Below are positions 2,538 to 16,402 of a stretch of DNA of 16,402 bases, in pieces. The DNA comes from Coxiellaceae bacterium (lineage in GTDB: Bacteria; Pseudomonadota; Gammaproteobacteria; UBA9339): NCBI GenBank assembly GCA_003142435.1, contig PLMI01000169.1, forward strand, positions 1,592 to 17,993, read 5' to 3'. The position numbers and the translations under genes were made by a program. Positions within the stretch are counted from its first letter, which is position 1, and each line of letters opens with the position of its first letter. Under the pieces are notes generated by a model. That model was given only the letters and a program-made list of their open reading frames with translations, searched no databases and was not told where the DNA came from.

Positions 2538-5500
2538 TTAACTACAACCAGTTGTTTCACCACAGGTAACACATTTCAGACAAGCGCCGTTCCTGACCAA
2601 AGTAAATTGATTGCAATTAGGGCAGGGTTCGCCTTCGTAGCCTTTGATTTTTGCTTCAGCCACAAGATCCGCCACGCTTTCGCTTTCACCTTCTTCTGTT
2701 ACAGATTCAATTGCCGGAACTTCTGGTTTTTCAGCTTCTCCTTCAAACTCAAGCTCTAATTGTTTTTGTTTTTTACGTGCAGCTTCTTCTAGAATTTCTG
2801 GTTTTACATGCGCAAGGTCATATCGTCCTAAATAAGTAATGGCCAGTTCGCGGAAAACGTAATCGATAACCGATGTTGCCATCTTGATAGATTTATTGCC
2901 TGTCACAATGCCGCTTGGTTCAAATTTAGTAAAGACAAAAGCTTCGACGAATTCTTCAAGTGGTACGCCATATTGCAACCCTAAAGAAATAGCGATGGCA
3001 AAGCAGTTCATGAGTGATCGATATGCAGCTCCTTCGCGGTGCATGTCTAAAAATATCTCGCCGAGTTTGCCGGTATCGTATTCTCCGGTTCTAAGATAAA
3101 GGCTATTTCCCGCAATTTTTGCCTTTTGCGTGTAGCCGCCTCTTCTGTCAGGTAATTTTGCTCTCCCTGCAACAATGCGTTGTACCATTTTTTCTGCTAA
3201 GGCTGCCGTTCCGATTTTAGTTATTTCAGTTGGGTCTAGATGTAACAATTCAGCGACTGCTTGCAGCGGCTGGCTTAATTTAGAACCGTCTCGGTATAAT
3301 GCAATCGCCTTGGTCGCCAATTTCCACGATAACATATAAGCATTTTTTACGTCTTCAATTGTCGATTCGTGCGGCATGTTTATTGTTTTAGAAATTGCGC
3401 CGCTTACAAAAGGCTGTGCTGCTGCCATCATGTAAATATGTGCTTCATAAGAAATAAAGCGTTTGCCAAAACGGCCGCATTTGCTTGCACAGTCAAAAAC
3501 GGGCAAATGTTTTGTTTTTAAATGTGGCGCGCCTTCAAGCGTCATGCTGCCGCAAATAAATTTATTTGCTTCTTGAATTTGTTCTTCAGTAAAGCCGAGT
3601 TCTTTGAGGAAGTTAAACTTTGGATTTGCAATTTTATTTTCGTCAATATGCAGGATTTTTTTGATTGTGTCTTTGCCTAATGTCCAAGCATTAAAGAGAA
3701 AATTTATATCAAAAGAAGTTTCCAGCTGTTGTTCCAGTTTATATAAAACGTCGTCTGGTAGTCCCTTTTTTTGTAAAGATTTTATATTTATATGCGGACA
3801 ATTTTCAAATGAGCCACTGCCCATGGCGTAAAAGATGATGTCTTGTATTTGTTTTTCTGTGTAACCTAAATGCTTTAAGCTTTCTGGTACGGATTGGTTG
3901 ATTATTTTAAAATAACCGCCGCCAGCAAGTTTTTTGAATTTCACTAACGCAAAATCTGGTTCAATTCCCGTAGTATCGCAGTCCATCACCAAACCAATTG
4001 TTCCCGTTGGCGCAATTGCGGTAACTTGCGCATTTCTGAAGCCATGTTTTGTGCCAAGTTCTAAAGCAAGATCAGCAGTTTGTTGCGCTTCTTTTAATAA
4101 ATAATCAGGGCAAAAAGCATCGTCAATTTTAAGTGGTTTTATGCTTAAGTTTTCAAATTTATTTTCGTTGTAAACTGCATGGCGATGATTGCGTATTACA
4201 CGCAACATGTCGGTTTTGTTAATTTCATATCCTTCGAAGGGGCCAAGTTGTTCTGCAAGTTCGGCTGAGGTTGCTAGAGCCGCAAATTGCATAATTGCTG
4301 TAACAGCACCACAAATTGCGACCGCCTCTTTGGAATCGTAAGGCACGCCAATGCGCATTAAGTATGCTCCCAAATTTGCATATCCTAAACCAAGTGCGCG
4401 GAATTTGTACGATGCTTGCGCTATGGGGGCGCTTGGATATTGCGCCATTAAAATGCTTATTTCTAACGTGAGAGTCCAAAGCCGCACCGCATGTTTGAAA
4501 GCATCAACGTCAAGCTTGCCGTCATTTTTCATGAACTTTGTAATGTTAAGCGAACCTAAATTACAGGCACTGTTATCTAAAAACATGTATTCCGAGCAAG
4601 GATTAGAAGCATTTATGCGTCCGCTTTTAGGGCAGGTGTGCCAGTCATTTATAGTTGTATCAAATTGCATGCCAGGATCTGCGCATGACCAGGCAGCGTA
4701 TGCAACTTGATCAAGCAAATATTTGGCCTTTATAGTTTTGCAGGGATTTGGTTCGCGTTTTTCTTTTTGCGCTTTTGCTAATTCAATTCGCCAATATAAA
4801 TTCCAATCGTCATCTTTTTCGACGGCTTTCATAAAATTTGCCGATGCGCGTACTGAATTATTGGAGTTTTGTCCGGAAACAGTTTGATATGCTTCGCTTT
4901 GCCAATCAGTATCGTATTCAGGAAAATCGATAGATCGGAGTCCTTGCTTGTAAAGTTCAATAACTCGCAAAATATAGGCTAAAGGAACCTGCACTTTTTG
5001 TGCTTCAGCGATAGCAAGAGCTAGAGTTTTATTTATTTTTGGATCGGTGCTTTCGTTTGGTTTTAATTTTGTATCATTACAGGCAGCAATAATTCTATTT
5101 AAATGCATGCGATTTAACTTTGATCCAGTGACAAGAGAAGCAACTTTTTGTTCTTCGATAACTTTCCAGTCAATAAAGTCTTCGATGTCAGGATGATCCA
5201 TATCCAAAACAACCATTTTGGCGGCGCGCCTTGTTGTGCCGCCCGATTTTATTGCTCCGGCGGCGCGGTCGCCAATGCGCAAAAATGACATAAGGCCGGA
5301 AGATTTGCCGCCTCCGCTTAGTGGTTCGCCGGCGCCTCTGATTTTAGAAAAGTTGGTTCCGGCTCCGGAACCATATTTAAAGAGCAATGCCTCGCGCGTC
5401 CACAAATCCATGATGCCGCCGTTGTTGACGAGGTCATCATCAATGGAAAGAATAAAACATGCATGAGGTTGCGGATGAGTGTAAGCGTCTTCTGATTTTT

Positions 5501-6065
5501 TGATTTCACCGGTTGCAGGGTCTGCATAATAATGTCCTTGTGCGGGACCTGTAATTCCATATGCCCAATTAAGGCCAGTGTTAAACCATTGCGGTGAATT
5601 CGGCGCGCCCATTTGCGTTGCAAGCATAAATACCATTTCATCATAATAGGAAAGAGCATCTTCTTCTGAATTAAAATAATTGTTTTTCCATCCCCAGTAA
5701 GTCCATGTTCCTGCTAAACGATGAAATATTTCCTTCGCGCTTTTTTCGCCGCGATATTGTTTTTCTTGCGGCAAACTTTCGAGTGCTTTCAAGTCTGGTT
5801 CGCTTCTTTGTAACCAGGCGGGAACATTTTTTTCTGCAATGCATTTTGTTATTGTTGGAATACCAGATTTGCGAAAATATTTTTGAGCGATGATATCCGT
5901 TGCGACTTGCGACCAAGATGCCGGAACTTCAACGTCTTTTGCAAAAAATGCTCTTGAACCATCTAAATTGAGAATTTCAGAAGTTCGCTTTACGTATTTT
6001 ATTTCATTAGTAGCGGATTTTTTGGCTGAGTTATTTTTGGTGAATCGTCTGTTAATAGAAGTCAT
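2538..6065 (-). CDS. nrdJ: Class II (adenosylcobalamin-dependent) ribonucleoside-diphosphate reductase
   Basis: A cytoplasmic enzyme of 1175 residues that reduces ribonucleotides to deoxyribonucleotides using a thiyl radical produced from adenosylcobalamin, so needing neither oxygen nor a separate radical subunit. Landmarks: substrate-site Cys203 in PHACFILS; the glycine-rich loop [13 protein letters not shown] (232-244); the catalytic NPCSE with thiyl Cys490 (488-492), followed by NLGSLN; APTGTIG (685-691); [15 protein letters not shown] (about 884-898); and [11 protein letters not shown] (924-934). The C-terminal tail has a zinc-ribbon-like CPNC (1148-1151), CLKCVTC (1162-1168) and a final GCS, typical of long NrdJ proteins where the tail re-reduces the active site. 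Between the core and tail is a low-complexity acidic stretch (about 1095-1135). Start: ATG with AAGGA 7-8 bases upstream; family length is normal. There is no room in the leader of about 25 nt for a cobalamin riboswitch. Confidence 0.96.
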
Positions 6066-6281: not shown

Positions 6282-6317
6282 CCAGGGCGGCTCGCAAAAA
6301 CGCTCGCGTGCCCTGGG
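6282..6317 (+). repeat. Large hairpin, copy 1 (forward)
   Basis: Arms CCAGGGC (6282-6288) and GCCCTGG (6310-6316), with an asymmetric interior containing CGC/GCG pairing and an AAAAAC loop. It has five A residues in the loop where other copies have six. Confidence 0.85.
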
Positions 6318-6322
6318 TTGAC

Positions 6323-6344
6323 GTAGGTTGACCTTGCAGGTCAA
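6323..6344 (+). repeat. GTAG tetranucleotide plus small hairpin
   Basis: GTAG at 6323-6326, one G, then TTGACCT-TGC-AGGTCAA (6328-6344), a perfect 7-bp stem. GTAG 5' of a hairpin is the signature of REP sequences recognised by RAYT proteins. The same arrangement recurs at 7391-7412. Confidence 0.7.
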
Positions 6345-6499
6345 TGATTCAAAAATTGTTAAATCATCATATGGTTTTTGCTATGCAAGACAATACAATG
6401 AAAACGAATTATATGTATGTGTTTTTGCAAATTGCTTGGGTTTGCGGATTCATATGAAATCGCATAACCTAAAATGGGTTGTGATTATCTCATTGCATT

Positions 6500-6516
6500 T
6501 CGACCTGAAAGGTCGA
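6500..6516. repeat. Small hairpin, TCGACCT type
   Basis: TCGACCT, GAA loop, AGGTCGA; followed by ATTTATGTTAG. An identical copy is at 7527-7543 and a decayed copy (left arm mutated to TTGGTCT) at about 7651-7667. Confidence 0.85.
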
Positions 6517-6646
6517 TTTATGTTAGTTTTTGTGACGAATTGTTTATTGCAAAATATATGTACAATCTAACCTGTTGGTTAATTTGCTTAGGATATTATT
6601 TACCCTAATGGACTAGATTTATGCTCACAAATTTGTTTTTTGTATT

Positions 6647-6663
6647 TTGACCTGCAAGGTCAA
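6647..6663. repeat. Small hairpin, TTGACCT type
   Basis: TTGACCT, GCA loop, AGGTCAA. It is the reverse-orientation counterpart of 6328-6344, and a copy with a GGA loop is at 7800-7816. The loop changes while the stem is conserved. Confidence 0.85.
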
Positions 6664-6673
6664 TCTATGTTAG

Positions 6674-6711
6674 CCCAGGGCATGCGAGCGTTTTTTGCGA
6701 GCCGCCCTGGG
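6674..6711 (-). repeat. Large hairpin, copy 2 (reversed)
   Basis: CCCAGGGC (6674-6681) and GCCCTGGG (6704-6711); the reverse complement of copy 1 apart from single-base changes, with ATGCG instead of ACGCG beside the left arm. Confidence 0.85.
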
Positions 6712-6733
6712 GAAATTGATCCCACACAATATT

Positions 6734-6750
6734 TTGCCCTGAAAGGGCAA
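6734..6750. repeat. TTGCCC-type hairpin, left of tnpA
   Basis: TTGCCCT, GAA, AGGGCAA, followed by CCTAAATT. It is mirrored on the other side of tnpA at 7307-7323 and repeated directly at 7889-7905. Lying 97 bp before tnpA, it is a candidate for the left-end hairpin of the transposon. Confidence 0.75.
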
Positions 6751-6847
6751 CCTAAATTATTACATATTGAGTTTTACGGTATTGCCATAAATTGTAAAAC
6801 AAAAAATAATATATAAATCGTCTTGAAAATTTATATAAAAATCTATC

Positions 6848-7300
6848 ATGTCACAATCATTATCCACCGTTATAATTCACATTGTTTTCAGCACTAAAAA
6901 TCGCGAAAAAATATTGAGCGATAATATTCGTGCAGAGCTTTACCCATATATTACATCTATGCTTCGCAATCATGAATGTCATCCTTATAAGATTGGTGGA
7001 ATGGCTGATCACATTCACATTTTATGTAAATTATCGAAAACGATTACAATTTCTGATTTGATAGGAAAAATAAAATTTGCCACATCAAAATTTATAAAAA
7101 ATAAAACTTCTGGGTCGCAAAAATTTTCTTGGCAAAATGGTTATGGCGTTTTCTCTGTTGGGCAAAGCTTATTGGATATTGTATGTGCTTACATTGCAAA
7201 TCAATCCCAACATCACAAAATAAGAACCTATGAAGATGAGCTTATTAAATTATTGAACAAACACAAAATAAATTATGATGAACGCTATTTGTGGAATTGA
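6848..7300 (+). CDS. tnpA: IS200/IS605-family Y1 (HUH) transposase, RAYT-like
   Basis: A 150-residue single-domain transposase. The HUH metal-binding motif is H55-I-H57 within GMADHIHILC, and the presumed nucleophilic tyrosine is Y115 in AYIANQSQHH, the layout of Y1 enzymes that cut and rejoin single-stranded DNA. The start STVIIHIVFSTKNREKIL, the WQNGYGVFS segment (95-103) and the end YDERYLW are characteristic of the IS200-like group that lacks a TnpB partner; none is present here. Full length with no stop, so probably active at some time. There is no clear Shine-Dalgarno, as is usual for these poorly expressed genes. The stop codon is only 6 bp from an inverted hairpin. Because the surrounding hairpins occur many times and in both orientations, a domesticated RAYT role (mobilising REP repeats) is as likely as a self-moving insertion sequence. 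Confidence 0.9.
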   Translation: MSQSLSTVIIHIVFSTKNREKILSDNIRAELYPYITSMLRNHECHPYKIGGMADHIHILCKLSKTITISDLIGKIKFATSKFIKNKTSGSQKFSWQNGYGVFSVGQSLLDIVCAYIANQSQHHKIRTYEDELIKLLNKHKINYDERYLWN

Positions 7301-7306
7301 ATTAGG

Positions 7307-7323
7307 TTGCCCCTTCAGGGCAA
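7307..7323. repeat. TTGCCC-type hairpin, right of tnpA (inverted)
   Basis: TTGCCC, a 5-base CTTCA loop, GGGCAA. With the flanking AATTAGG it is the reverse complement of 6744-6757, giving tnpA-proximal inverted ends. Confidence 0.75.
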
Positions 7324-7347
7324 AATTGTGTGGGGATCATCTCTAAA

Positions 7348-7385
7348 CCCAGGGCGGCTCGCAAAAAACGCTCGCGTGCCCTGGG
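7348..7385 (+). repeat. Large hairpin, copy 3 (forward)
   Basis: CCCAGGGC (7348-7355) and GCCCTGGG (7378-7385). With the following GTAG hairpin (7391-7412) and AATTCAAAAATTG it repeats about 6282-6358 almost exactly. Confidence 0.85.
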
Positions 7386-7390
7386 CTAAC

Positions 7391-7412
7391 GTAGGTTGAC
7401 CTTGCAGGTCAA
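7391..7412 (+). repeat. GTAG tetranucleotide plus small hairpin, second copy
   Basis: GTAG at 7391-7394, one G, then TTGACCT-TGC-AGGTCAA at 7396-7412; identical to the copy at 6323-6344. Confidence 0.7.
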
Positions 7413-7526
7413 TAATTCAAAAATTGCCCCATGATAACGAATGATATACATACATTTTTATGAGTTGATTGAGTTTGACGATTGAAACCTAATACCCAAA
7501 ATAGATTGTGATTATCTTATTGCATT

Positions 7527-7543
7527 TCGACCTGAAAGGTCGA
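7527..7543. repeat. Small hairpin, TCGACCT type, second copy
   Basis: Identical to 6500-6516, including the preceding ATTGCATT and the following ATTTATGTTAG, but here it is joined directly to a large hairpin (7554-7591), unlike the copy at 6500. Confidence 0.8.
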
Positions 7544-7553
7544 TTTATGTTAG

Positions 7554-7591
7554 CCCAGGGCACGCGAGCGTTTTTTGCGAGCCGCCCTGGG
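7554..7591 (-). repeat. Large hairpin, copy 4 (reversed)
   Basis: CCCAGGGC (7554-7561) and GCCCTGGG (7584-7591). This copy has no counterpart in the left module, so it marks an extra insertion, or alternatively a deletion on the left. Confidence 0.85.
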
Positions 7592-7598
7592 TGTCTAG

Positions 7599-7864
7599 GG
7601 ATTCATATGAAATCTTATAACCAAAATGGATTGTGATTATCTCATTACATTTTGGTCTGAAAGGTCGATTTATGTTAGCTTTTGTGACGAATTGTTTATT
7701 GTAAAATATATGTACAATCTAACCTGTTGGTTAATTTGCTTAGTATGTTGTTTACCCTAATGGACTAGATTTATGCTCACAAATTTGTTTTTTTGTATTT
7801 TGACCTGGAAGGTCAATCTATGTTAGCCCAGGGCACGCGAGCGTTTTTTGCGAGCCGCCCTGGG
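7599..7864. repeat. 266-bp direct duplication, copy B
   Basis: Partner of 6446-6711, with about 16 differences by hand. It contains a decayed small hairpin (about 7651-7667), an intact one with a GGA loop (7800-7816) and the large hairpin at 7827-7864; a TTGCCC-type hairpin follows at 7889-7905, as after copy A. Confidence 0.85.
7827..7864 (-). repeat. Large hairpin, copy 5 (reversed)
   Basis: CCCAGGGC (7827-7834) and GCCCTGGG (7857-7864), identical in plan to copies 2 and 4. Confidence 0.85.
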
Positions 7865-7888
7865 TTTAGGAATTAACCCGATGTGGTT

Positions 7889-7905
7889 TTGCCCTGAAAG
7901 GGCAA
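7889..7905. repeat. TTGCCC-type hairpin, third copy
   Basis: TTGCCCT, GAA, AGGGCAA, followed by TCTAAATTA; the same orientation and sequence as 6734-6750. It is the outermost intact repeat on the right. Confidence 0.75.
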
Positions 7906-7954
7906 TCTAAATTACTTATGCAATTATGGATGATTTTTTGCGTAGCTGCTGTAG

Positions 7955-7983
7955 CCGAGCGTTTTTGCGTGCAGGACTTGGGT
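7955..7983. repeat. Decayed large hairpin at the array edge
   Basis: CCGAGCGTTTTTGCG followed by CTTGGGT resembles the loop and right half of the reversed large hairpin. It begins 14 bp past the stop codon of the kinase gene. As at 2464-2512, the left arm is missing. Similarity is by eye only. Confidence 0.35.
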
Positions 7984-7996
7984 AAATCGCAAATTG

Positions 7997-10393
7997 TTAC
8001 TCTTCCGGCTTATAGAAATTCTGAATTTCCTCGATTTCGGTGCAAGCTTTTTGGAAGAGATTATCCACCAATTTCTTTTTAATCTTGTATAGTTTTTCTG
8101 TTGCAAGTTCCAACTGAAAAAGAGTATTTTGCAATTTGGTAATTCCTGTATAACACAATGCGCCTTTCAATTTATGGCTGACAAGAAAAAGAGATTTATA
8201 ATTTTTGGTCTCGTAGGCTTTTTTCAGATCATCCAGATATTCCGGAAGCTTTGCCATGAGAGTTTTCATTAAAAGCTTCATCAGCTTTTCATCACCGTGG
8301 GCTATTTTCTTTGCAAGATCCCAATCAATTAATGGCCTTTCGGTTATTTCTTGCTCGATTGGTGTTGACGTTGTTGCTTTTGCTCCAACTTTGGCTAGCG
8401 CTTTTGATTTTTGCATTAACCAAATAGCCAACATATCCTTTGCTTTATCAATATCTAATGGTTTCGTTAAAAAGTCATTCATTCCGGCAGCAAGACAGTT
8501 TTTTTTCATCGTTTCGTCTTGGTGAGCGGTTATCGCGATAATCGGAACCTTCTTGTCAATTTTTCTGATTTTTTTTGTCAGCTCTTCTCCTGTTATATCA
8601 GGCAATCCAACGTCTGTAAAAATTATGTCATAAGTATTTTCTTTAAATATTTGCATTAGCTCTTTGCCTGTTTCTGCAAGAGAAAACTTCATATGCAATT
8701 TTTCTTTAAATATATTTTGTGCTGAGCTCTGCGCGAGTTTATCGTCTTCTGCCAACAGTACTTTTTTGTTTCGTAATTCGCTAAAGTCGATGTTGGAAAA
8801 AGCACTTTTTACGGGGGTGATGTCATCTATTGCATTTGTATTTTTAAGTTCGCACGGAATAAGGCAAGTAAAAGTTGTTCCTTTGCCTTCCTTGCTTTCC
8901 AATTCGATTTTACCATTTAGCTCTTCAATAAATTGTTTGGTAATGCTAAGTCCAAGACCTGAGCCTGGGTAAAGCCCTTTATTCGATGGAGTACAGCGCA
9001 CGAAGCGATCATAAACTTGATTTACTTTATCTTTAGGAATGCCAATGCCGCTGTCTGCAACAGTGATTTTTAAAATTAATTGATTGTCGTCAACCCATTT
9101 GTCCACAGACATGATAAGTTTAACAAATCCTTTGGGGGTGAACTTTACCGCGTTGCTTACAAGATTTAAGAACGAGCGAAACATGCGTGTTTTATCGCTA
9201 ACAATTAATTTTGGTACGTCTTTTGCGCATTCTAAATGTAATTGTAATTTCTTGAGCTGTATAGTCGGTGCTTCAATTTCAACGATGCTCCTGACGAGGT
9301 CGTGAACATCAAATCGCGTAAGAATGATAGGAATTTGACCAGAACTGATTTTATCGAATTCTAAAACGTCATTAATTAAATCGAGCAATCTTGCTGAAGC
9401 ATCAGCTACTTGTTTTAGTATTTTTTTTCGTTTTGGTTGCTTTTCTGTTTCTACAAGATTTTTAGTTATTTGCGATATGCCGGCAGCCGGAGTGCGCAAA
9501 TCATGCTGCATGTTTTGAATAAACTTCGATTTTGCTTCGCTTGCAGCTTCCGCTTGTTCTTTGGCGATGCGGAGTTGTTCTTCGGCATTTTTACGGTCGG
9601 TTATATCTACAGAAATACCAACCAAACCAGTTGTCTCACCGTTAATGACTATAGGTTCTTTATGAGATAAATAAGTATGCTCCGAATTATCGGCCAGCTT
9701 AACAGTGTTTTCAAGTACTCTTCCAACCCCGGATTTTATAATTTCCAAATGCTCCTGATTTATTTCATCAGCAGTTTCTTTGCTCCAACCCAGAGTTTTT
9801 GCAAAATCATAAATGTCCTTACCAAGGCAACTTTCAACATCTTTACAACCAAAATTAACCGCTTGCGTCAGATTAGCCCCAATAATCTTTGTATCTTTAT
9901 CTGTCCAGTATATGTGCGCAGGCAAAATATCAATAATTTTCTGTAACAATTCCGCTGGCTTTACAGTATTTTCTGTAACTTTTTTTTCCGATTCGAATTG
10001 CTCAACTCGTTTGCGATCAGTTATATCAAAAGAAATCCCCATTAAACCAGTTACTTCTCCATTAACAACTATAGGGTTTTTATAAGACAAGTAAGTATGC
10101 TCTAAACCATCAGCCAATATAAGAGTATTTTCAGTTATTTTCCCAACTCCGGTTTTTATGATTTCTATATCTTCCTGATGAATGGTATCGGCCATTTTTT
10201 TATTCCAACCAAGAATTTTTGCAAAATCATAAATATCCTTACCGAGGCAGCTTTCAACATCTTTACAACCAAAATTAATTGCAAGCGTTAGATTTGTGCC
10301 CATAATCTTTGCATCCTTGTCGGTCCAGTATATGTGTACAGGTAAGGTATCAACAATTTTTCTCAACAGATCTTCTGTTAATTTTATATTCAT
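7997..10393 (-). CDS. Hybrid sensor histidine kinase: PAS-PAS-HisKA-HATPase-REC-Hpt
   Basis: A 798-residue cytoplasmic hybrid kinase of ArcB-like order without membrane segments. PAS1 about 5-130 and PAS2 about 145-270, each ending in DITDRK; a coiled linker (270-290); HisKA with phospho-acceptor His297 in MQHDLRTP; HATPase with N-box NLVSNAVKFT (410-419), DSGIGIP (447-453) and GSGLGLS (477-483); receiver with acidic E549/D550/D551, phospho-acceptor Asp594 in FTDVGLP and Lys644; Hpt with His740 in SHKLKG. All catalytic residues of a four-step phosphorelay are present. The two PAS domains are 87/120 identical by my count, a recent internal duplication. No output domain or cognate response regulator is nearby, so phosphate must pass to a regulator elsewhere. 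It starts 33 bp after the oxidoreductase stop, co-directional, so probably the last gene of that operon. Related in sequence to the kinase at the right edge. Confidence 0.94.
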   Translation of the reverse strand: MNIKLTEDLLRKIVDTLPVHIYWTDKDAKIMGTNLTLAINFGCKDVESCLGKDIYDFAKILGWNKKMADTIHQEDIEIIKTGVGKITENTLILADGLEHTYLSYKNPIVVNGEVTGLMGISFDITDRKRVEQFESEKKVTENTVKPAELLQKIIDILPAHIYWTDKDTKIIGANLTQAVNFGCKDVESCLGKDIYDFAKTLGWSKETADEINQEHLEIIKSGVGRVLENTVKLADNSEHTYLSHKEPIVINGETTGLVGISVDITDRKNAEEQLRIAKEQAEAASEAKSKFIQNMQHDLRTPAAGISQITKNLVETEKQPKRKKILKQVADASARLLDLINDVLEFDKISSGQIPIILTRFDVHDLVRSIVEIEAPTIQLKKLQLHLECAKDVPKLIVSDKTRMFRSFLNLVSNAVKFTPKGFVKLIMSVDKWVDDNQLILKITVADSGIGIPKDKVNQVYDRFVRCTPSNKGLYPGSGLGLSITKQFIEELNGKIELESKEGKGTTFTCLIPCELKNTNAIDDITPVKSAFSNIDFSELRNKKVLLAEDDKLAQSSAQNIFKEKLHMKFSLAETGKELMQIFKENTYDIIFTDVGLPDITGEELTKKIRKIDKKVPIIAITAHQDETMKKNCLAAGMNDFLTKPLDIDKAKDMLAIWLMQKSKALAKVGAKATTSTPIEQEITERPLIDWDLAKKIAHGDEKLMKLLMKTLMAKLPEYLDDLKKAYETKNYKSLFLVSHKLKGALCYTGITKLQNTLFQLELATEKLYKIKKKLVDNLFQKACTEIEEIQNFYKPEE

Positions 10394-10426: not shown

Positions 10427-11752
10427 TCACACCCGATAGGTGACATTTGAAAACGACGAGTGTATATCTTCAGCAGCTTTTATACCAGAATCTATTGCCG
10501 CTAAAACATTCGGTGAATTTACTGAACTACCGATAAAATAAGTATCTATTTCCTTATTATATTTCGGCGCTGTAAATCCTGCAGGTGATTCTAGTAATGG
10601 AATATTATTAGCCATACCAAACCGCCTGACATATTCAGCAGGAGATATAACATGACTCTCCACTATTGCAGCCCTAAAATTATGAATTCTAGATGCTATT
10701 TTAGTTATTACATATTCTCTAATTTTTTTAGCTTGCTCTTCAGTAAGCTCTTCTATACCTCGCGGAGTTGGCATATATGCTGTTACTGTATAGCAGCCGT
10801 TTTGTTCAGGTAAGCTATTAATGAAACAATGGAATCCGAATGAATCCGGAAGACTTCCGCCTAATCTTATTTCGCTCATCCGATATGTAAAGTTTTTAGG
10901 TAAAAAAGCCGTTGTATGAGTTCTGCGAAGGTACTTGCAACTGCTTTTGATAGCGAATAAAAGCGTAGTTAACGCCAAACCAGGGCGAGACTGCGGTGGA
11001 TAATATTTCCAAGCATCAACGCTTGATATTACCAAATCGGATTGATATGCATTGCCATTTTTAGTTTTAATTAATTTACGACCATTCGGCAGTTTCTTAA
11101 TTTCTTGACACTCATTGAGGAAGGCGACTTGCCCACCAAGTCGAAGAAACCTGTCTCGCATTTTATCTGTAACACTTGTCATTCCGCCAATAGGTATTCT
11201 AGGATACTGCATACTTTGAGCCATCATAACACGTAATAATCCCAGGTTTATATCCGGCCCTAATGTCGGATAAGAGAACGAAGCCTGCACTTCATTAGAA
11301 AATGCCGGATTAAGACCAAGCAATATAGATGATAACTGTTTGCCTGTTTCGCCATACAAAGACCTCCAAAAAAATTTGGCTGAACTTACAGGGTATGATA
11401 AAAAATGCCATACTGTTTTAAAATCAAACGGACTTCTTAGCGTCGTTCCATTTTCAAAAACACACTCATTCGATCTTGATGCAAATGAATGTTCTACACC
11501 CAATGTTTTTAGTGTTTGCTCAAATCCAATAGGTGGTTGATTGCACCCAACCTCGAATTCAAAGTTACCTATTTTAGCGGTATTACATGGACCACCCACT
11601 CTTTGCGATTTCTCCAAGAGTAACACAGGTTGATTTGGACAAAGTTGGAGCGACTTAATACCACAAGCAAGTCCTGCTGGACCAGCCCCAATAATTGTCA
11701 GATAAAAATTTCTTGGACTACTCACAAATGTTGATAATTGGTTTAAGTACAT
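10427..11752 (-). CDS. FAD-dependent oxidoreductase, CrtI/amine-oxidase-like
   Basis: About 441 residues from the ATG at 11750-11752 (a TTG at 11780-11782 would add ten). The N-terminal Rossmann motif YLTIIGAGPAGLACG (about 17-31) and the acidic LLLEKS plus RVGGPC segment bind the FAD ADP moiety; PIGGMTSVTDKM (about 187-198) and the C-terminal YFIGSSVNSPNVLAAIDSG (about 405-423) complete the FAD-binding pattern of the phytoene desaturase/protoporphyrinogen oxidase/amine oxidase superfamily. It has no transmembrane helix or signal peptide. No carotenoid genes are near, so the substrate is more likely made by the A-T-R protein encoded 47 bp upstream on the same strand; amine, dihydropyrazine or alcohol oxidation would each fit. 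There is no good Shine-Dalgarno for either start, which suggests coupling to the upstream gene. The fold is well supported; the reaction is not known. Confidence 0.85.
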   Translation of the reverse strand: MYLNQLSTFVSSPRNFYLTIIGAGPAGLACGIKSLQLCPNQPVLLLEKSQRVGGPCNTAKIGNFEFEVGCNQPPIGFEQTLKTLGVEHSFASRSNECVFENGTTLRSPFDFKTVWHFLSYPVSSAKFFWRSLYGETGKQLSSILLGLNPAFSNEVQASFSYPTLGPDINLGLLRVMMAQSMQYPRIPIGGMTSVTDKMRDRFLRLGGQVAFLNECQEIKKLPNGRKLIKTKNGNAYQSDLVISSVDAWKYYPPQSRPGLALTTLLFAIKSSCKYLRRTHTTAFLPKNFTYRMSEIRLGGSLPDSFGFHCFINSLPEQNGCYTVTAYMPTPRGIEELTEEQAKKIREYVITKIASRIHNFRAAIVESHVISPAEYVRRFGMANNIPLLESPAGFTAPKYNKEIDTYFIGSSVNSPNVLAAIDSGIKAAEDIHSSFSNVTYRV

Positions 11753-11799
11753 AGTAAATAAAGTAGTTAATATGGCGGGCAAGTACCGCGCAATAAATT

Positions 11800-14700
11800 T
11801 TAATATTCCGCATTTAGCAAATTATTACAATACATTTTAATTAGCTGGTCAATTGGTGTGGGTAATATTCCACCTTTTGCTAGCAATTCATAAGTAAACT
11901 TGTTTACGAACTGCGGCGTATGTTGATATATTTCTAAAGCTGTTAATTCATCGTATATCTTTTCACTGAGCAACGGAAAAAAAGAATATAAATAATTATC
12001 TTTTTTATTTTCTGGAAGATCCTTGATAACAAGCTGTAACCATGTTTTATAAGGCAGCAACTCTAAGTGAATCCCAAGTAGTTTAATTATTTCTTGGATA
12101 AAAACTGTACTACTTATGTTATCCGATGACTTTGGACAAAGATGATAAATTTTTCCGATTGAATCGTCGCGTTGTGACAAATAATAAATAGCTTTTGCCG
12201 TATAATCTACAGAAATAAATTCCTCTAATTGATCAACCAAGTTTGGATAAACACCCAAACGTAAGCACTCCTTTACGTAAGCATGCCAAAATTGCTGAGT
12301 TGATGTAGCTCCAGTTTCACTGTGGCATAATATTAAACCTGGACGATATATAGTAATTGGAACACCACGTTCTATTGCTTGCTGCATCAAATAATCGGCA
12401 ACCCATTTACTTTGTACATAACCAATTTCATGCGTCAAACATGAAGCACTTTTGATTGTATCGGTAAATTCATCAATTTGTTTCAGACCTTTTTCAAAAA
12501 GATGTCTATAACTAAAAACAGATAATGTAGATATATAATGAATAGGAATAAGCTGATCAAAAGTAGCCAAACGCAATATTTCCTTAGAACCCAAAACATT
12601 TGCTGGTTTTAATGCAACATAAGGCTTGATAAAGCTTACATCGCTGGCTGCATGGTAAATCATATTTACGGTTCTACTCAACGATACAAATTGCTGTTCA
12701 TCTAATCCAAAAAATGGTTTGGTAAGATCGCATGGAATAGCTTGTAATCGAGACGCATGTTTTACAAAATCGCAATCTATCTGGTATTTTTTTGCTGTTT
12801 CCTCAATTCGTTGTAAAGCAGCGTTTGTTTCCTTGGCTCGCACTAAACAATAAATAATTGCATCAGTATTATTAAGTAATTCATCTAGTAAAAAAGCACC
12901 TAAAAAACCAGTTGCCCCAGTAAGCAATATATTTCTCTTGGCAGATTGACGGCTATTAAAATTAGCATAATGCTGTTTGGTAAGAACTTCATTTATACAA
13001 GCTTCTTCTGAAAAATCGATAACTGTCTCCGCTTGTTCGGTTGTCAATGATTTAATATAATTCGCCATGCTTTTAATGGATGTATGCTCGTAAAACTTAC
13101 CTACTCGCATATCGATATTAAAAGCTTTATTAACTTCTATGATAAAATTAATTATAGAAAATGAATCCATCCCGACATCAAAAAAATTGGTATCAGCTTC
13201 GATTTGGTTGATATTAAGTAAACGTCGCAAAATATCGTACAAAACACATTCATCATTAGTCCAGACAGCATCAATGGAGTTATTTATTACACTATCACTT
13301 TGATAGTGATCAAGCATTTGGTAGTCAGTTTTACCATTTAAATTTAATGGAATCTTAGACAGGAAAAAACACTTATTTGGTGAAACACCAGCTGGTAATT
13401 TCTTACGTAGATAAGATCTTAGCTCAGCTTCATTAAGTTTTTTGCCTGGCTTTAGTTGTGTATATACAGATAGAATGTCATTTTCAAACACAGCAGCACT
13501 AATAGCTATGTATTCATGTTCACTTAAGGCTATTTCAATCTCATCTAAACTGATGCGAATCCCATGGAATTTAATTTGTCGATCTTTTCTGCCAATATAT
13601 TCTATATTGCCATCTTCCAGCATTCTTACAAAATCACCTGTTTTGTAAAGCCGTTTACCAGATATTTGCAGAAAACTTTTTGCGGTTTGCTCACTATTTC
13701 TATATTTGCGAGCTAATCCAGTACCTCCAATATACAATTCACCAATTTCTTGATTTTTAACCGGTTTTAAATCTGAGTCTAATATATACAATTCAGCATC
13801 ACCTAATGATTTTCCAATAGGTACCCTAGCAGTATATTCGATTTTTTTATCTATCTTATAAGATGTTACTGCAACAGACGCCTCTGTCGGACCATAAATA
13901 TTAAATAATATAAATCTATTTTTTAATTTATTAACAACACTAGGAGCGCATACTTCTCCCCCAGACATTATAACTTTTAAATGTGGAAAGGAAGCATCTT
14001 GCATTACTTTTAAAATAGAAGGTAATAAAATCACAATACTAATTCTATTATTATTAATCGTATCAATCATTGGCTGACCTGGAAGCTGATCTATTTTTTT
14101 AGTAATAACTAGGGTCCCACCTCTTAAGATTGGGATTCCTATTTCAGGAATGATTGCATCAAAACCTATAGAAGAAAACTGCAATAACCGTAGAGGCATT
14201 ACATCTTCAGGTATAATGTTTGCCATTGCAATACATGTATTAATAAATCCCTTATGTTCAAGCTCAACTCCTTTCGGACGACCTGTAGAGCCAGATGTAA
14301 ATAAAATATAAGCAATATCATCGAACGATATAGGTAGATCTAAATTATCTCCAGAGTAACGCGCCAACATCGCTTCATCATAACGAATAAACTTAACATT
14401 GGTATATCCACATAGCTCAGTTAATTCCATAGGATGTACAATAATGTGTGATAACTTAGTATCCTCGATAATAAAATTTATTCGATCAGAAGAAGCATTG
14501 ACATCGATGGGCACACATATGGCACCACATTTCAATACACTCATTAAAATTATAGGTAGTTCGAGACTTCTATCTACATATAGTCCGACCGTCATTCCTT
14601 TCTCAATACCTAATTGTTGTAAATATCTAGCCAATTGGTTTGATCTTTTATTAAACTCTTTATAAGTGCAAAAGTTCTCGTAGTATATGATGGCTATCTC

Positions 14701-14802
14701 ATTTGGAGTTAACTCTGATTGTTGCTCCAGTAATTGATGGAAGGTATGTACGGAGTGATTATTAAGTCTCTTATTTTTGATTAGTAAGTTTTCGTGTGCC
14801 AT
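11800..14802 (-). CDS. NRPS-like adenylation-carrier-thioester reductase (A-T-R) protein
   Basis: A 1000-residue single-module synthetase. Adenylation domain about 20-500: FTSGSTGRPKG (168-178), FDAIIPE (214-220), NIYGPTE (301-307), GELYIGG (354-360), YKTGD (386-390), GRKDRQIKFHG (404-414) and catalytic Lys491 in NLNGKTDY. Carrier domain about 515-585, with phosphopantetheine Ser547 in FFDVGMDS. Reductase domain about 620-985, with NAD(P)H motif GATGFLG (629-635), Ser758/Thr759, and catalytic Tyr795/Lys799 in YVQSK. It has no condensation domain, so it should activate one acid and release it as an aldehyde or alcohol, like Lys2 and carboxylic acid reductases. Asp215 at the first specificity position suggests an alpha-amino acid; hand alignment to GrsA gives the pocket D-A-P-L-M-G-I-V-A-K, hydrophobic and not one I recognise. 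No phosphopantetheinyl transferase gene is in the window. Confidence 0.93.
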   Translation of the reverse strand: MAHENLLIKNKRLNNHSVHTFHQLLEQQSELTPNEIAIIYYENFCTYKEFNKRSNQLARYLQQLGIEKGMTVGLYVDRSLELPIILMSVLKCGAICVPIDVNASSDRINFIIEDTKLSHIIVHPMELTELCGYTNVKFIRYDEAMLARYSGDNLDLPISFDDIAYILFTSGSTGRPKGVELEHKGFINTCIAMANIIPEDVMPLRLLQFSSIGFDAIIPEIGIPILRGGTLVITKKIDQLPGQPMIDTINNNRISIVILLPSILKVMQDASFPHLKVIMSGGEVCAPSVVNKLKNRFILFNIYGPTEASVAVTSYKIDKKIEYTARVPIGKSLGDAELYILDSDLKPVKNQEIGELYIGGTGLARKYRNSEQTAKSFLQISGKRLYKTGDFVRMLEDGNIEYIGRKDRQIKFHGIRISLDEIEIALSEHEYIAISAAVFENDILSVYTQLKPGKKLNEAELRSYLRKKLPAGVSPNKCFFLSKIPLNLNGKTDYQMLDHYQSDSVINNSIDAVWTNDECVLYDILRRLLNINQIEADTNFFDVGMDSFSIINFIIEVNKAFNIDMRVGKFYEHTSIKSMANYIKSLTTEQAETVIDFSEEACINEVLTKQHYANFNSRQSAKRNILLTGATGFLGAFLLDELLNNTDAIIYCLVRAKETNAALQRIEETAKKYQIDCDFVKHASRLQAIPCDLTKPFFGLDEQQFVSLSRTVNMIYHAASDVSFIKPYVALKPANVLGSKEILRLATFDQLIPIHYISTLSVFSYRHLFEKGLKQIDEFTDTIKSASCLTHEIGYVQSKWVADYLMQQAIERGVPITIYRPGLILCHSETGATSTQQFWHAYVKECLRLGVYPNLVDQLEEFISVDYTAKAIYYLSQRDDSIGKIYHLCPKSSDNISSTVFIQEIIKLLGIHLELLPYKTWLQLVIKDLPENKKDNYLYSFFPLLSEKIYDELTALEIYQHTPQFVNKFTYELLAKGGILPTPIDQLIKMYCNNLLNAEY

Positions 14803-14818
14803 AGTTATTCTTAAATTA

Positions 14819-14950
14819 TTACTTCTTTGATTGTAGAATCTTATAGACGATTACACATCCAATTTTTAGCTGGCGAGCAATAGTGGACGAAGCTGATTTT
14901 TGTTCTTTCAATTTAAATTTTGATCCTTTTTTTAGTAATTCACTAAGTTG
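14819..14950 (-). pseudogene. C-terminal remnant of a serine-recombinase-like HTH protein
   Basis: An open frame of about 43 codons with no start codon, preceded by in-frame stops and ending TAA at 14819-14821. It includes SELLKKGSKF and STIARQLKIGCVIVYKILQ, which follows the IARxLxIGxxTVYxxL helix-turn-helix that closes resolvase/invertase proteins. The expected Arg/Ser-Thr at the turn are replaced (GCVIV), consistent with decay. The rest of the protein is absent; only 212 bp separate the flanking genes. It lies 16 bp upstream of the A-T-R start and could be a scar of the event that placed that gene here. Assignment is by motif only. Confidence 0.45.
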
Positions 14951-15018
14951 TTACATAACTCATCGATTTTTGAATACGTGGTAGCTTTAATGGATTGTTG
15001 ACAGTTTTCCAGTATCAT
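14932..15018 (-). CDS. Possible 28-residue ORF overlapping the kinase stop codon
   Basis: ATG at 15016-15018 overlaps the kinase TGA (15015-15017) as ATGA, the usual sign of translational coupling; the frame encodes MILENCQQSIKATTY and on to LVNY, ending TAA at 14932-14934. The peptide is unrecognised and has no hydrophobic segment. It may be chance, or the start of a gene truncated when the recombinase-like remnant was formed. Confidence 0.2.
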   Translation of the reverse strand: MILENCQQSIKATTYSKIDELCNNLVNY

Positions 15019-16402
15019 AATGTCTCATAAACTTCCAAAACCTCGGTTATTTCAGTACAAACAACATTATATAATTCTTTGATATCCGCTACTTTCACTT
15101 TTTTTGGTTTAGTAGCAGCGCACAAGTTAGAAGCAGCAACTCTAAGTTTTGATGCACCAGAGTAAGTCGCAGCTCCACGGAGTTTATGGCTTAAATCATA
15201 CAAAGTTGTAATGTCGGTTTTCCTAAAAGCTGATTTTAGATCTTGCAAGTACTTTGGCAGTATCTCAGCAAAAACCTGCCATAGTTGTTTTGCTATATCT
15301 TCCCTGCCGTTTAAGATTTTTTTACATAATTCAAAATCTATGATTTGATTATCATTAGAAATAGTATAGTCTAAAATATTCGAATCAACATCGATGTTTT
15401 TTTCTTTTAGTAACCATCTATGTAAAACCGCTTTTGCCTTTTGTATGTTCAAAGGTTTAGCTAAAAGGTCATTCATGCCAACGCTTCGGCAAATGTCGCG
15501 GATGAGTGCTTTGTCATGAGCCGTTAAAGCAACAATAGGTGTTTCTTTATTTGTTTTACGTATAGCTAAGGTTACATCAGAGCCAATGATATCAGGAAGT
15601 CCTAAGTCCATAAAAATCAGATCGTAATTATTTTCCCTGACCATTTTTAAAGCTTCTTCTCCAGTTTTTGCTAAAGAAAAATTAGTATGTAAATTGTCTG
15701 CAAGAATTATTCGCGAAGACATTTGAGCTATTTCGTCATCTTCAACTAACAATATTTTTTTGTCAGAGAAATCGGTTTTTGTATCAAACTGAGGCAGGGA
15801 AGGTGTATATATATTTTCATTTTTTGTGGGAATCTCTTGTCTAAAAATATTGTCATAATTTGTAATATCCAAAAGCGATATAGTGCAAGGCAGCAAACAA
15901 GTGAAAATTGTACCTTTCCCTGCAGAACTTTCAACCTCGATTTCACCTTTAAGGTCTTCAATGAATTGCTTAGTGATACTTAAGCCTAAACCAGAGCCCG
16001 GGTACATCCCTTTATTAGTTGGTGTAGCCCGTTCAAAGCGTTCATAAATTCTATGTTGCATATGCAAAGGAATGCCAATGCCGGTGTCAGAAACAGCTAT
16101 TTTTAAAATGCAATGTTGGTTATCTATTTGTTTTGCAATGCTCAGAGATAATTTTACGTGTCCTTCATTGGTAAATTTTAATGCATTACCAATAAGGTTT
16201 AAAAAAATACGGAAAATACGGTTTTTGTCGCTAATAACATGTTGCGGAACATCTTTAGCGATTTCCAGTTGTAAATCTAGTTTCTTGTTAAGCGCAACAG
16301 CTGTTTCAAGCTCGATAATGTTGTTTGCGATGCCATATAAATCAACTTTTTGTGCTAAAACCTGTATTTCATGCGAAGTTATTTTATCAAAAGACGCAAT
16401 TT
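15015..16402 (-). CDS. Hybrid sensor histidine kinase, 5' part beyond the right edge
   Basis: Partial: the frame stays open to the window edge, giving 462 visible codons; the HisKA phospho-His and any sensor domain are outside. It enters just after the second HisKA helix (SFDKITSHEI), followed by the HATPase with NLIGNALKFT, DTGIGIP and GSGLGLS; a receiver with VEDD and phospho-acceptor Asp in FMDLGLP (codon 15606-15608) and LAKP; and an Hpt with His in SHKLRG (codon 15186-15188). All visible catalytic residues are intact. Across 56 residues from the YxRF to the PC after the HATPase it matches the kinase at 7997-10393 at 41 positions, so the two are paralogues. It is co-directional with the A-T-R gene 212 bp downstream; a separate promoter for the latter was not convincing. 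Starting the protein at the internal TTG (16065-16067) would cut the ATP-binding domain and is rejected. Confidence 0.92.
   Translation of the reverse strand, partial: IASFDKITSHEIQVLAQKVDLYGIANNIIELETAVALNKKLDLQLEIAKDVPQHVISDKNRIFRIFLNLIGNALKFTNEGHVKLSLSIAKQIDNQHCILKIAVSDTGIGIPLHMQHRIYERFERATPTNKGMYPGSGLGLSITKQFIEDLKGEIEVESSAGKGTIFTCLLPCTISLLDITNYDNIFRQEIPTKNENIYTPSLPQFDTKTDFSDKKILLVEDDEIAQMSSRIILADNLHTNFSLAKTGEEALKMVRENNYDLIFMDLGLPDIIGSDVTLAIRKTNKETPIVALTAHDKALIRDICRSVGMNDLLAKPLNIQKAKAVLHRWLLKEKNIDVDSNILDYTISNDNQIIDFELCKKILNGREDIAKQLWQVFAEILPKYLQDLKSAFRKTDITTLYDLSHKLRGAATYSGASKLRVAASNLCAATKPKKVKVADIKELYNVVCTEITEVLEVYETL

Follow-up and report, generated by a model that had tools for sequence, protein, structure and literature searches.

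The window analysed here is the whole stretch of 16,402 nucleotides from a Coxiellaceae bacterium (contig PLMI01000169.1 of assembly GCA_003142435.1, positions 1,592 to 17,993). It carries the smallest version seen in this study of a recurrent arrangement, in which a nonribosomal peptide synthetase (NRPS) ending in a thioester reductase (R) domain lies beside, or is fused to, a soluble-looking hybrid histidine kinase with PAS domains. Read along the minus strand, the order is a kinase (HK1), 212 bp, a synthetase of adenylation (A), carrier (T) and R domains (A-T-R; 14802-11800), 47 bp, a gene for an FAD oxidoreductase (11752-10427), 33 bp, and a second hybrid kinase (HK2; 10393-7997). We propose, at a probability of roughly 0.4, that the last three genes form a unit in which the downstream kinase would sense a small molecule derived from an aldehyde and perhaps modified by the FAD enzyme. 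An earlier, sequence-only reading of this DNA had described a minimal two-gene biosynthetic cassette of synthetase and FAD enzyme. That description was too narrow because a hybrid kinase comes directly after the FAD gene; the same-strand kinases, downstream and upstream, went unmentioned. The main features are as follows.

11800..14802, minus strand: minimal NRPS-like A-T-R synthetase, 1000 aa, intact (open reading frame, domain and motif scans)
13312..14730, minus strand: adenylation domain, aa 25-497, pocket DAPIMGIVAK (Pfam, motifs and alignment)
13054..13242, minus strand: carrier domain, aa 521-583, Ser547 in GMDSFS (Pfam; Ser547 aligned and invariant)
11809..12933, minus strand: thioester reductase domain, aa 624-998, TGATGFLG ... 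HYISTL ... GYVQSKW (TIGRFAM-type model and motifs)
10427..11752, minus strand: FAD oxidoreductase, 441 aa from ATG, CrtI/amine-oxidase-like fold (open reading frame, Pfam, structure comparison)
7997..10393, minus strand: hybrid histidine kinase HK2, 798 aa, PAS-PAS-HisKA-HATPase-RR-Hpt, where RR is the response regulator domain (Pfam; 33 bp after the FAD gene)
15015..16402, minus strand: paralogous hybrid kinase HK1, cut by the window end (PAS, HATPase, RR, Hpt; 212 bp before A-T-R)

Pairing of R domains with PAS kinases

A search for the R domain in 11 genomes of the window's order gave eight strong matches (172-300 bits; the next scored 66). Downstream of seven of the eight lay a PAS kinase: it was the next gene in five, shared the frame in one, and in the window came after the FAD gene. 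Among the five, the kinase overlapped the R gene by 17 bp (G004:C37) or 50 bp (G007:C63), abutted it (G001:C51), or followed after a gap of 14 bp (G008:C52) or 15 bp (G009:C49). The same-frame case, G004:C6 (L056:5543-19087, minus strand), is an NRPS-kinase fusion in a single open frame of 4,514 aa, with a formyltransferase, three A, two condensation (C), three T and an R domain, two PAS domains, a HATPase, and an RR barely over the cut-off. The phmmer queries used to recognise kinases were six sample domains (three HATPase, two PAS, one RR), so kinases of another kind may have escaped.

As a control, 369 genomes of the class were searched. An R match at 1e-30 was present in 32 of them, three of these being from the window's order. 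We took all 20 matches of >=168 bits outside the order and left out the 12 weaker ones listed (109-137 bits). A kinase was directly downstream in one of the 20 and divergent in one (L140, scored as a miss); in L141, L149 and L153 the A domain was not seen in frame. The contrast of 7/8 with 1/20 gave p = 5e-5 by Fisher's test, and 6/7 with 1/20, the window omitted, gave p = 1.6e-4; both values ignore the non-independence of the own-order loci, five of the eight R loci being in four genomes of one genus. Since the sole control locus with a downstream kinase, G051:C8, belongs to a second order, the control is otherwise 0/19.

NRPS loci without an R domain in the fetched stretch numbered 11 in the window's order (L061, L064 and L066-L074; L075 is part of the contig of L072). 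The downstream gene was visible in five of these (L064, L067, L068, L069 and L072), and a kinase was present in one of the five, L064, one gene further. L061 had a divergent kinase. The kinase at L064 (12350-13975, plus strand; G009:C11), one gene after an NRPS/polyketide synthase locus with no visible R domain, is of the paired clade described below.

The second order had an R match at 1e-40 in 44 of 112 genomes. From these we took every one of the 13 listed matches whose frame measured 1,550-1,600 aa (12 new ones and G051), a set chosen by frame length, which is a test of conservation and not a random sample. All 13 (L137/G051:C8 and L157-L168) were F-A-T-R proteins, that is, with an N-terminal formyltransferase; in L168 there were stop codons inside the match. 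Nine had a full PAS-HATPase-RR kinase directly downstream, at gaps of 4-127 bp; in two the downstream frame was cut by the contig end with its PAS part visible, and in two the kinase, or the PAS part of one, was divergent. Pfam scans of three of these kinases showed PAS, HisKA, HATPase, RR and Hpt, the same plan as HK2. HK2 and the G051 kinase were 31% identical over 687 columns.

The window itself has a PAS hybrid kinase without membrane segments one gene after the A-T-R gene. HK2 has no predicted membrane segment, its highest 19-residue Kyte-Doolittle mean is 1.01, and it is predicted to be soluble. Of 16 paired or window kinases, 15 had no 19-residue mean >1.6; the G007:C63 kinase had three such windows.

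These counts bear on a more ordinary explanation, in which the product of the A-T-R and FAD enzymes is a pyrazine or some compound derived from an amine, has another role, and is regulated by the kinase in response to another cue. PAS_4 domains bind many ligands. The window's kinase subfamily also occurs without an NRPS in fetched stretches. ATRed of Xenorhabdus indica (xind01729), an A-T-R enzyme, makes a pyrazine from Phe and does so in E. coli as well; the available part of that report does not mention a kinase (PMC7586950). We consider this explanation rather unlikely, since it leaves unexplained both the synthetase and kinase in one frame and the pairings of 7/8 and 13/13 against 1/20 in the control.

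History of the pairing

In a tree of 44 R domains, the window formed one lineage with P0005, P0006 and P0007 (100/98). Five own-order R domains were in another lineage, together with L159:2-1168 and one from G088, and the F-A-T-R proteins formed a third group. Within this third group, own-order G008:C52 paired with the F-A-T-R protein of L159 (100/96).

Three kinase trees were built, with 43, 39 and 46 rows. Rows with a HATPase of <16 bits (first tree) or <20 bits (later two) were left out, as were three long-branch kinases in the second tree and five in the third. The own-order paired kinases were in a nine-row clade (100/99), which included G009:C11 and two kinases whose fetched surroundings showed no NRPS. 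Nine second-order kinases formed a separate clade (100/98), with the divergent kinase of L160 outside. The HK pair of the window formed a third clade (100/99), with a paralog from its own genome.

For G008:C52 the two histories disagree: its R domain pairs with that of a second-order F-A-T-R protein (100/96), and its kinase belongs to the clade of own-order NRPS kinases (100/99). Here the pairing outlived a change of partner. Judging from these trees, the pairing arose or was re-established on more than one occasion, and this speaks for a function.

The A-T-R synthetase

The synthetase proved complete and without a condensation domain, as the sequence-only reading had it. Its 1000-aa frame scored 243 bits for AMP-binding, 53 for PP-binding and 213 for NAD_binding_4 in Pfam, which found no Condensation domain in the protein. 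It also passed TIGR01733 (342.6 against a cut-off of 317.4) and TIGR01746 (296.4 against 213.35). A pattern search found motifs A3, A5, A7, A8 and A10, TGATGFLG, HYISTL and GYVQSKW, and the carrier Ser547 (GMDSFS) is an invariant alignment column, so that all three domains keep their catalytic motifs intact. The protein thus has the make-up of a minimal ATRed-like NRPS, with A, T and R in one chain and neither C nor thioesterase domain.

It contains the sole NRPS-type R domain found in its own genome (next TIGR01746 match 36.5 against 299.9 bits). That genome also encodes a carrier activator, a PF01648 match of 245 aa, which we read from its length and sequence as Sfp-type. The nearest A-T-R proteins were P0005 (49%), P0006 (45%) and the fragment P0020 (45%). 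Among 95 relatives, own genome aside, G051:C8 gave the best genome match with its F-A-T-R gene (405 bits, 33%).

Pocket codes were read from an alignment of 42 A-domain rows. The ten positions in the window (D215, A216, P219, I258, M279, G281, I302, V310, A311 and K491; DAPIMGIVAK) were assigned by motif offsets that we take to be those of gramicidin S synthetase; in other rows, the same columns give what we take to be Val and Phe codes. The code first read by hand, D-A-P-L-M-G-I-V-A-K, agreed in nine places; the fourth is I258 and not L. The sibling pockets are DASIMAAVCK in P0005 and P0006 and DASIIAAVCK in P0020. If, as we assume, DAWTIAAVCK-like codes denote Phe and DAFWxGGTFK denotes Val, the siblings would resemble aromatic codes and the window's pocket less so. 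Among the 13 second-order pockets were eight DAFWLGGTFK, two DVYYLGGVCK and one each of DAWTIAAVCK, DAWTVAAVCK and DAWIVGAVCK; thus eight of 13 seem Val-like and two or three Phe-like.

Because Asp215 and Lys491, the ends of the pocket, are retained, the substrate of the window enzyme looks like an alpha-amino acid; by the Lys2 score given below, it does not look like aminoadipate. Lys2, the aminoadipate reductase, and carboxylic acid reductases have the same domain order as A-T-R. An identity with either is very improbable: the Lys2 model TIGR03443 gave 346 bits against a cut-off of 1030 and the carboxylic acid reductase model NF041592 gave 179 against 1300, and the Asp215/Lys491 pocket is that of an amino-acid enzyme. 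Aminoadipate activation, which the sequence-only reading had named as its refutation, looks unlikely on these scores.

The FAD oxidoreductase

The FAD frame (10427-11782, minus strand) encodes 451 aa if it starts at a TTG and 441 aa if it starts at the ATG of position 11752. The distance of 47 bp given earlier holds with the ATG, close to which the relatives P0002 and P0003 also begin. Amino_oxidase and NAD_binding_8 were above their Pfam cut-offs, and only such generic Pfam models were passed. The AlphaFold model used (seven-row alignment, pLDDT 66.8; a first model at pLDDT 35 was unusable) matched CrtI-type and amine-oxidase-type structures alike; identity to two structures of the CrtI type, 4rep and 4dgk, was 16-18%. 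The label 'CrtI-like' thus stands for a CrtI/amine-oxidase-like fold and fails for CrtI itself, since TIGR02734 gave 46.7 bits against a cut-off of 238. The Asp of an 'IGDSS' motif, present in both relatives, is missing from the window's protein.

A carotenoid desaturase unrelated to the A-T-R enzyme would share this fold. Phytoene synthase (SQS_PSY, PF00494) was found in none of the 11 searched genomes of the order, the window's own (a 1.49-Mb draft in 174 contigs) being 94% complete; seven of 14 control genomes were positive. A carotenoid role is therefore unlikely, and the desaturase explanation, largely refuted by this search with some 6% of the genome missing, is hardly credible. The association with carotenoids that was to speak against the earlier reading was not seen in these 11 genomes.

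Relatives of the FAD protein were few. A large protein database contained three members, the window's own included; the other two sit on contigs of 1.9 and 1.6 kb, with their gene neighbours out of view. An alignment query of the protein database gave eight matches, with one new long match, P0124 (22%), and four covering 11-18%; in each search, scoring was confined to the 7,999 candidates with most shared words. Among the 95 relatives, 11 order genomes and 369 class genomes, the listed matches beyond the window's own were nearly all to the N-terminal nucleotide-binding stretch. Over genome contigs, none of 19 stretches was confirmed, and plasmids and viral sequences gave no match. An R-domain alignment query found four loci over genome contigs (32-39% identity) and two in viral sequences; by phmmer, the FAD protein was present at none of the four. 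The co-occurrence check proposed with the cassette was negative: no FAD relative lay beside 20 other class R loci or 12 further second-order loci.

Surroundings of the locus and points against a linked function

In the longer contig, HK1 has 666 aa (L054:16606-18606, two unknown residues). Beyond it, at L054:18905-19464 (minus strand), are two small adjoining frames of 91 and 86 aa, by eye a RelE-type toxin and a Phd-type antitoxin. On the other side, 6282-7972 contains direct-repeat families of 19 to 171 nt, and an IS200-type (Y1) transposase at 6848-7300 is flanked on both sides by repeated REP-like palindromes. A B12-dependent ribonucleotide reductase (2538-6065, minus strand, 1175 aa) passes NF005736. 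Rfam at gathering thresholds gave no match across the window. One weak feature lies between HK1 and the A-T-R gene.

14831..14914, minus strand: possible recombinase helix-turn-helix remnant (weak, not significant)

For this interval HTH_7 gave 10.1 bits (E 1.75), below the cut-off, and there was no Pfam match; we rejected the remnant as not significant.

Several observations weigh against the three-gene unit. HK2 has the 53% identical paralog HK1 close by on the upstream side, and the genome encodes a further close homolog at another place, so the synthetase may have landed in a kinase array. Window-type kinases were fetched at L076, L088, L089 and L093 with no NRPS within a few kb. G002:C127 has an R domain and no kinase in the stretch scanned, and the second-order R domain L159:2-1168 adjoins an F-A-T-R gene, not a kinase. 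In all three trees the window kinases were outside the clade of the six own-order kinases paired with R-terminated NRPSs, and we rejected their membership in it. The A-T-R/FAD pair was seen in the window only, the neighbours of the closest A-T-R relatives being outside view. As far as these trees go, descent does not prove the window's own pair.

The synthetase and FAD genes could have been inserted into a kinase tandem with which they have no functional link. The kinase paralogs on both sides (53% identity), the recombinase-like remnant, for what an E of 1.75 is worth, and the IS200-type transposase would fit, and so would the GC content of the A-T-R gene (0.331), below that of HK2 (0.363), the FAD gene (0.385) and the ribonucleotide reductase (0.410); yet the HK1 part is also low (0.344). 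We regard such a chance neighbourhood as unlikely, because the pairing is found repeatedly in two orders, whose paired kinases belong to different clades.

Proposed mechanism and implications

Release of amino aldehydes is known chemistry for the A-T-R anatomy, and the aldehyde release proposed for the R domain by the sequence-only reading is consistent with it. In the three-gene unit, the A-T-R enzyme would load one hydrophobic alpha-amino acid on its carrier and release the alpha-amino aldehyde with NAD(P)H; the anatomy for this is in place and the chemistry is taken from known relatives. The free amino aldehyde would condense, the simplest product being a dihydropyrazine or a cyclic imine related to it, and either this condensed species or the amine might be oxidised by the FAD enzyme. 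A small diffusible product would then bind a PAS domain of HK2 and feed its internal His-Asp-His phosphorelay. A PAS kinase without membrane segments would suit a ligand that is produced in the cytoplasm or reaches it by diffusion. In the F-A-T-R pairs the formyl group would keep the aldehyde from condensing with itself; nothing would prevent this in the window, so that a cyclic imine or pyrazine is the likelier product there. Aromatisation of a dihydropyrazine by the FAD enzyme, as first suggested, is possible and perhaps unneeded; ATRed gives its pyrazine also in E. coli (PMC7586950), and in Lentzea the oxidation of a dihydropyrazine is taken as spontaneous in the available part of the report (PMC8658869).

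More broadly, we tentatively suggest, as something short of an even chance, that R-terminated NRPSs and soluble PAS phosphorelay kinases make up a new kind of self-contained chemical signalling system, present in two or more orders of a single bacterial class. If this is true, the synthetase writes an amino-acid-derived aldehyde, N-formylated where there is a formyltransferase and FAD-tailored in the window, and the partner kinase reads it. The one-polypeptide fusion shows how tight the link between the two may be. A-T-R enzymes are usually regarded as sources of metabolites. Repeated operon linkage to sensor kinases of cytoplasmic appearance, and in one case a shared frame, would make them candidate signal synthases, each with a candidate receptor. 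From the pocket codes, be they Val-like, Phe-like or other, the signals could be predicted, so that a ligand-receptor pair could be tested before any compound is isolated.

Comparison with known systems

Within open-licence literature, titles and abstract openings gave no NRPS-kinase pair or fusion. ATRed, like the window protein, has A, T and R in a single protein with no condensation domain, and its product is best explained, in the part of the report available, by way of an amino aldehyde that goes on to a pyrazine (PMC7586950). It differs in that its gene alone suffices for the pyrazine, whereas the window adds an FAD enzyme and a hybrid kinase; the likeness drawn here is one of architecture.

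HamD and MgoA are, like the window enzyme, R-domain NRPSs, and their operons make or control signals (PMC11659414, PMC3945005). According to the parts of these reports available, the cluster of HamD makes the signal valdiazen, with the final reduction perhaps by an enzyme outside the cluster (PMC11659414), and MgoA is a one-module NRPS that regulates mangotoxin production, for which a condensation domain is also listed (PMC3945005). Their operons differ in having other tailoring enzymes, and an adjacent hybrid kinase is not mentioned in those parts; the A-T-R gene, compared with the Mgo and Ham operon genes inside the window only, has kinases and the FAD gene as neighbours.

The FAD fold of the window protein is common to the group of CrtI, protoporphyrinogen oxidase and amine oxidase; its low identity to 4rep and 4dgk and the failure to find phytoene synthase in the order set it apart from that group. 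The second-order F-A-T-R/kinase pairs (G051:C8, L157-L168) differ from the window in their N-terminal formyltransferase, the absence of an intervening FAD gene, their mostly Val- or Phe-like pockets and another R-domain lineage. They share with it an R-terminated one-module synthetase beside a kinase.
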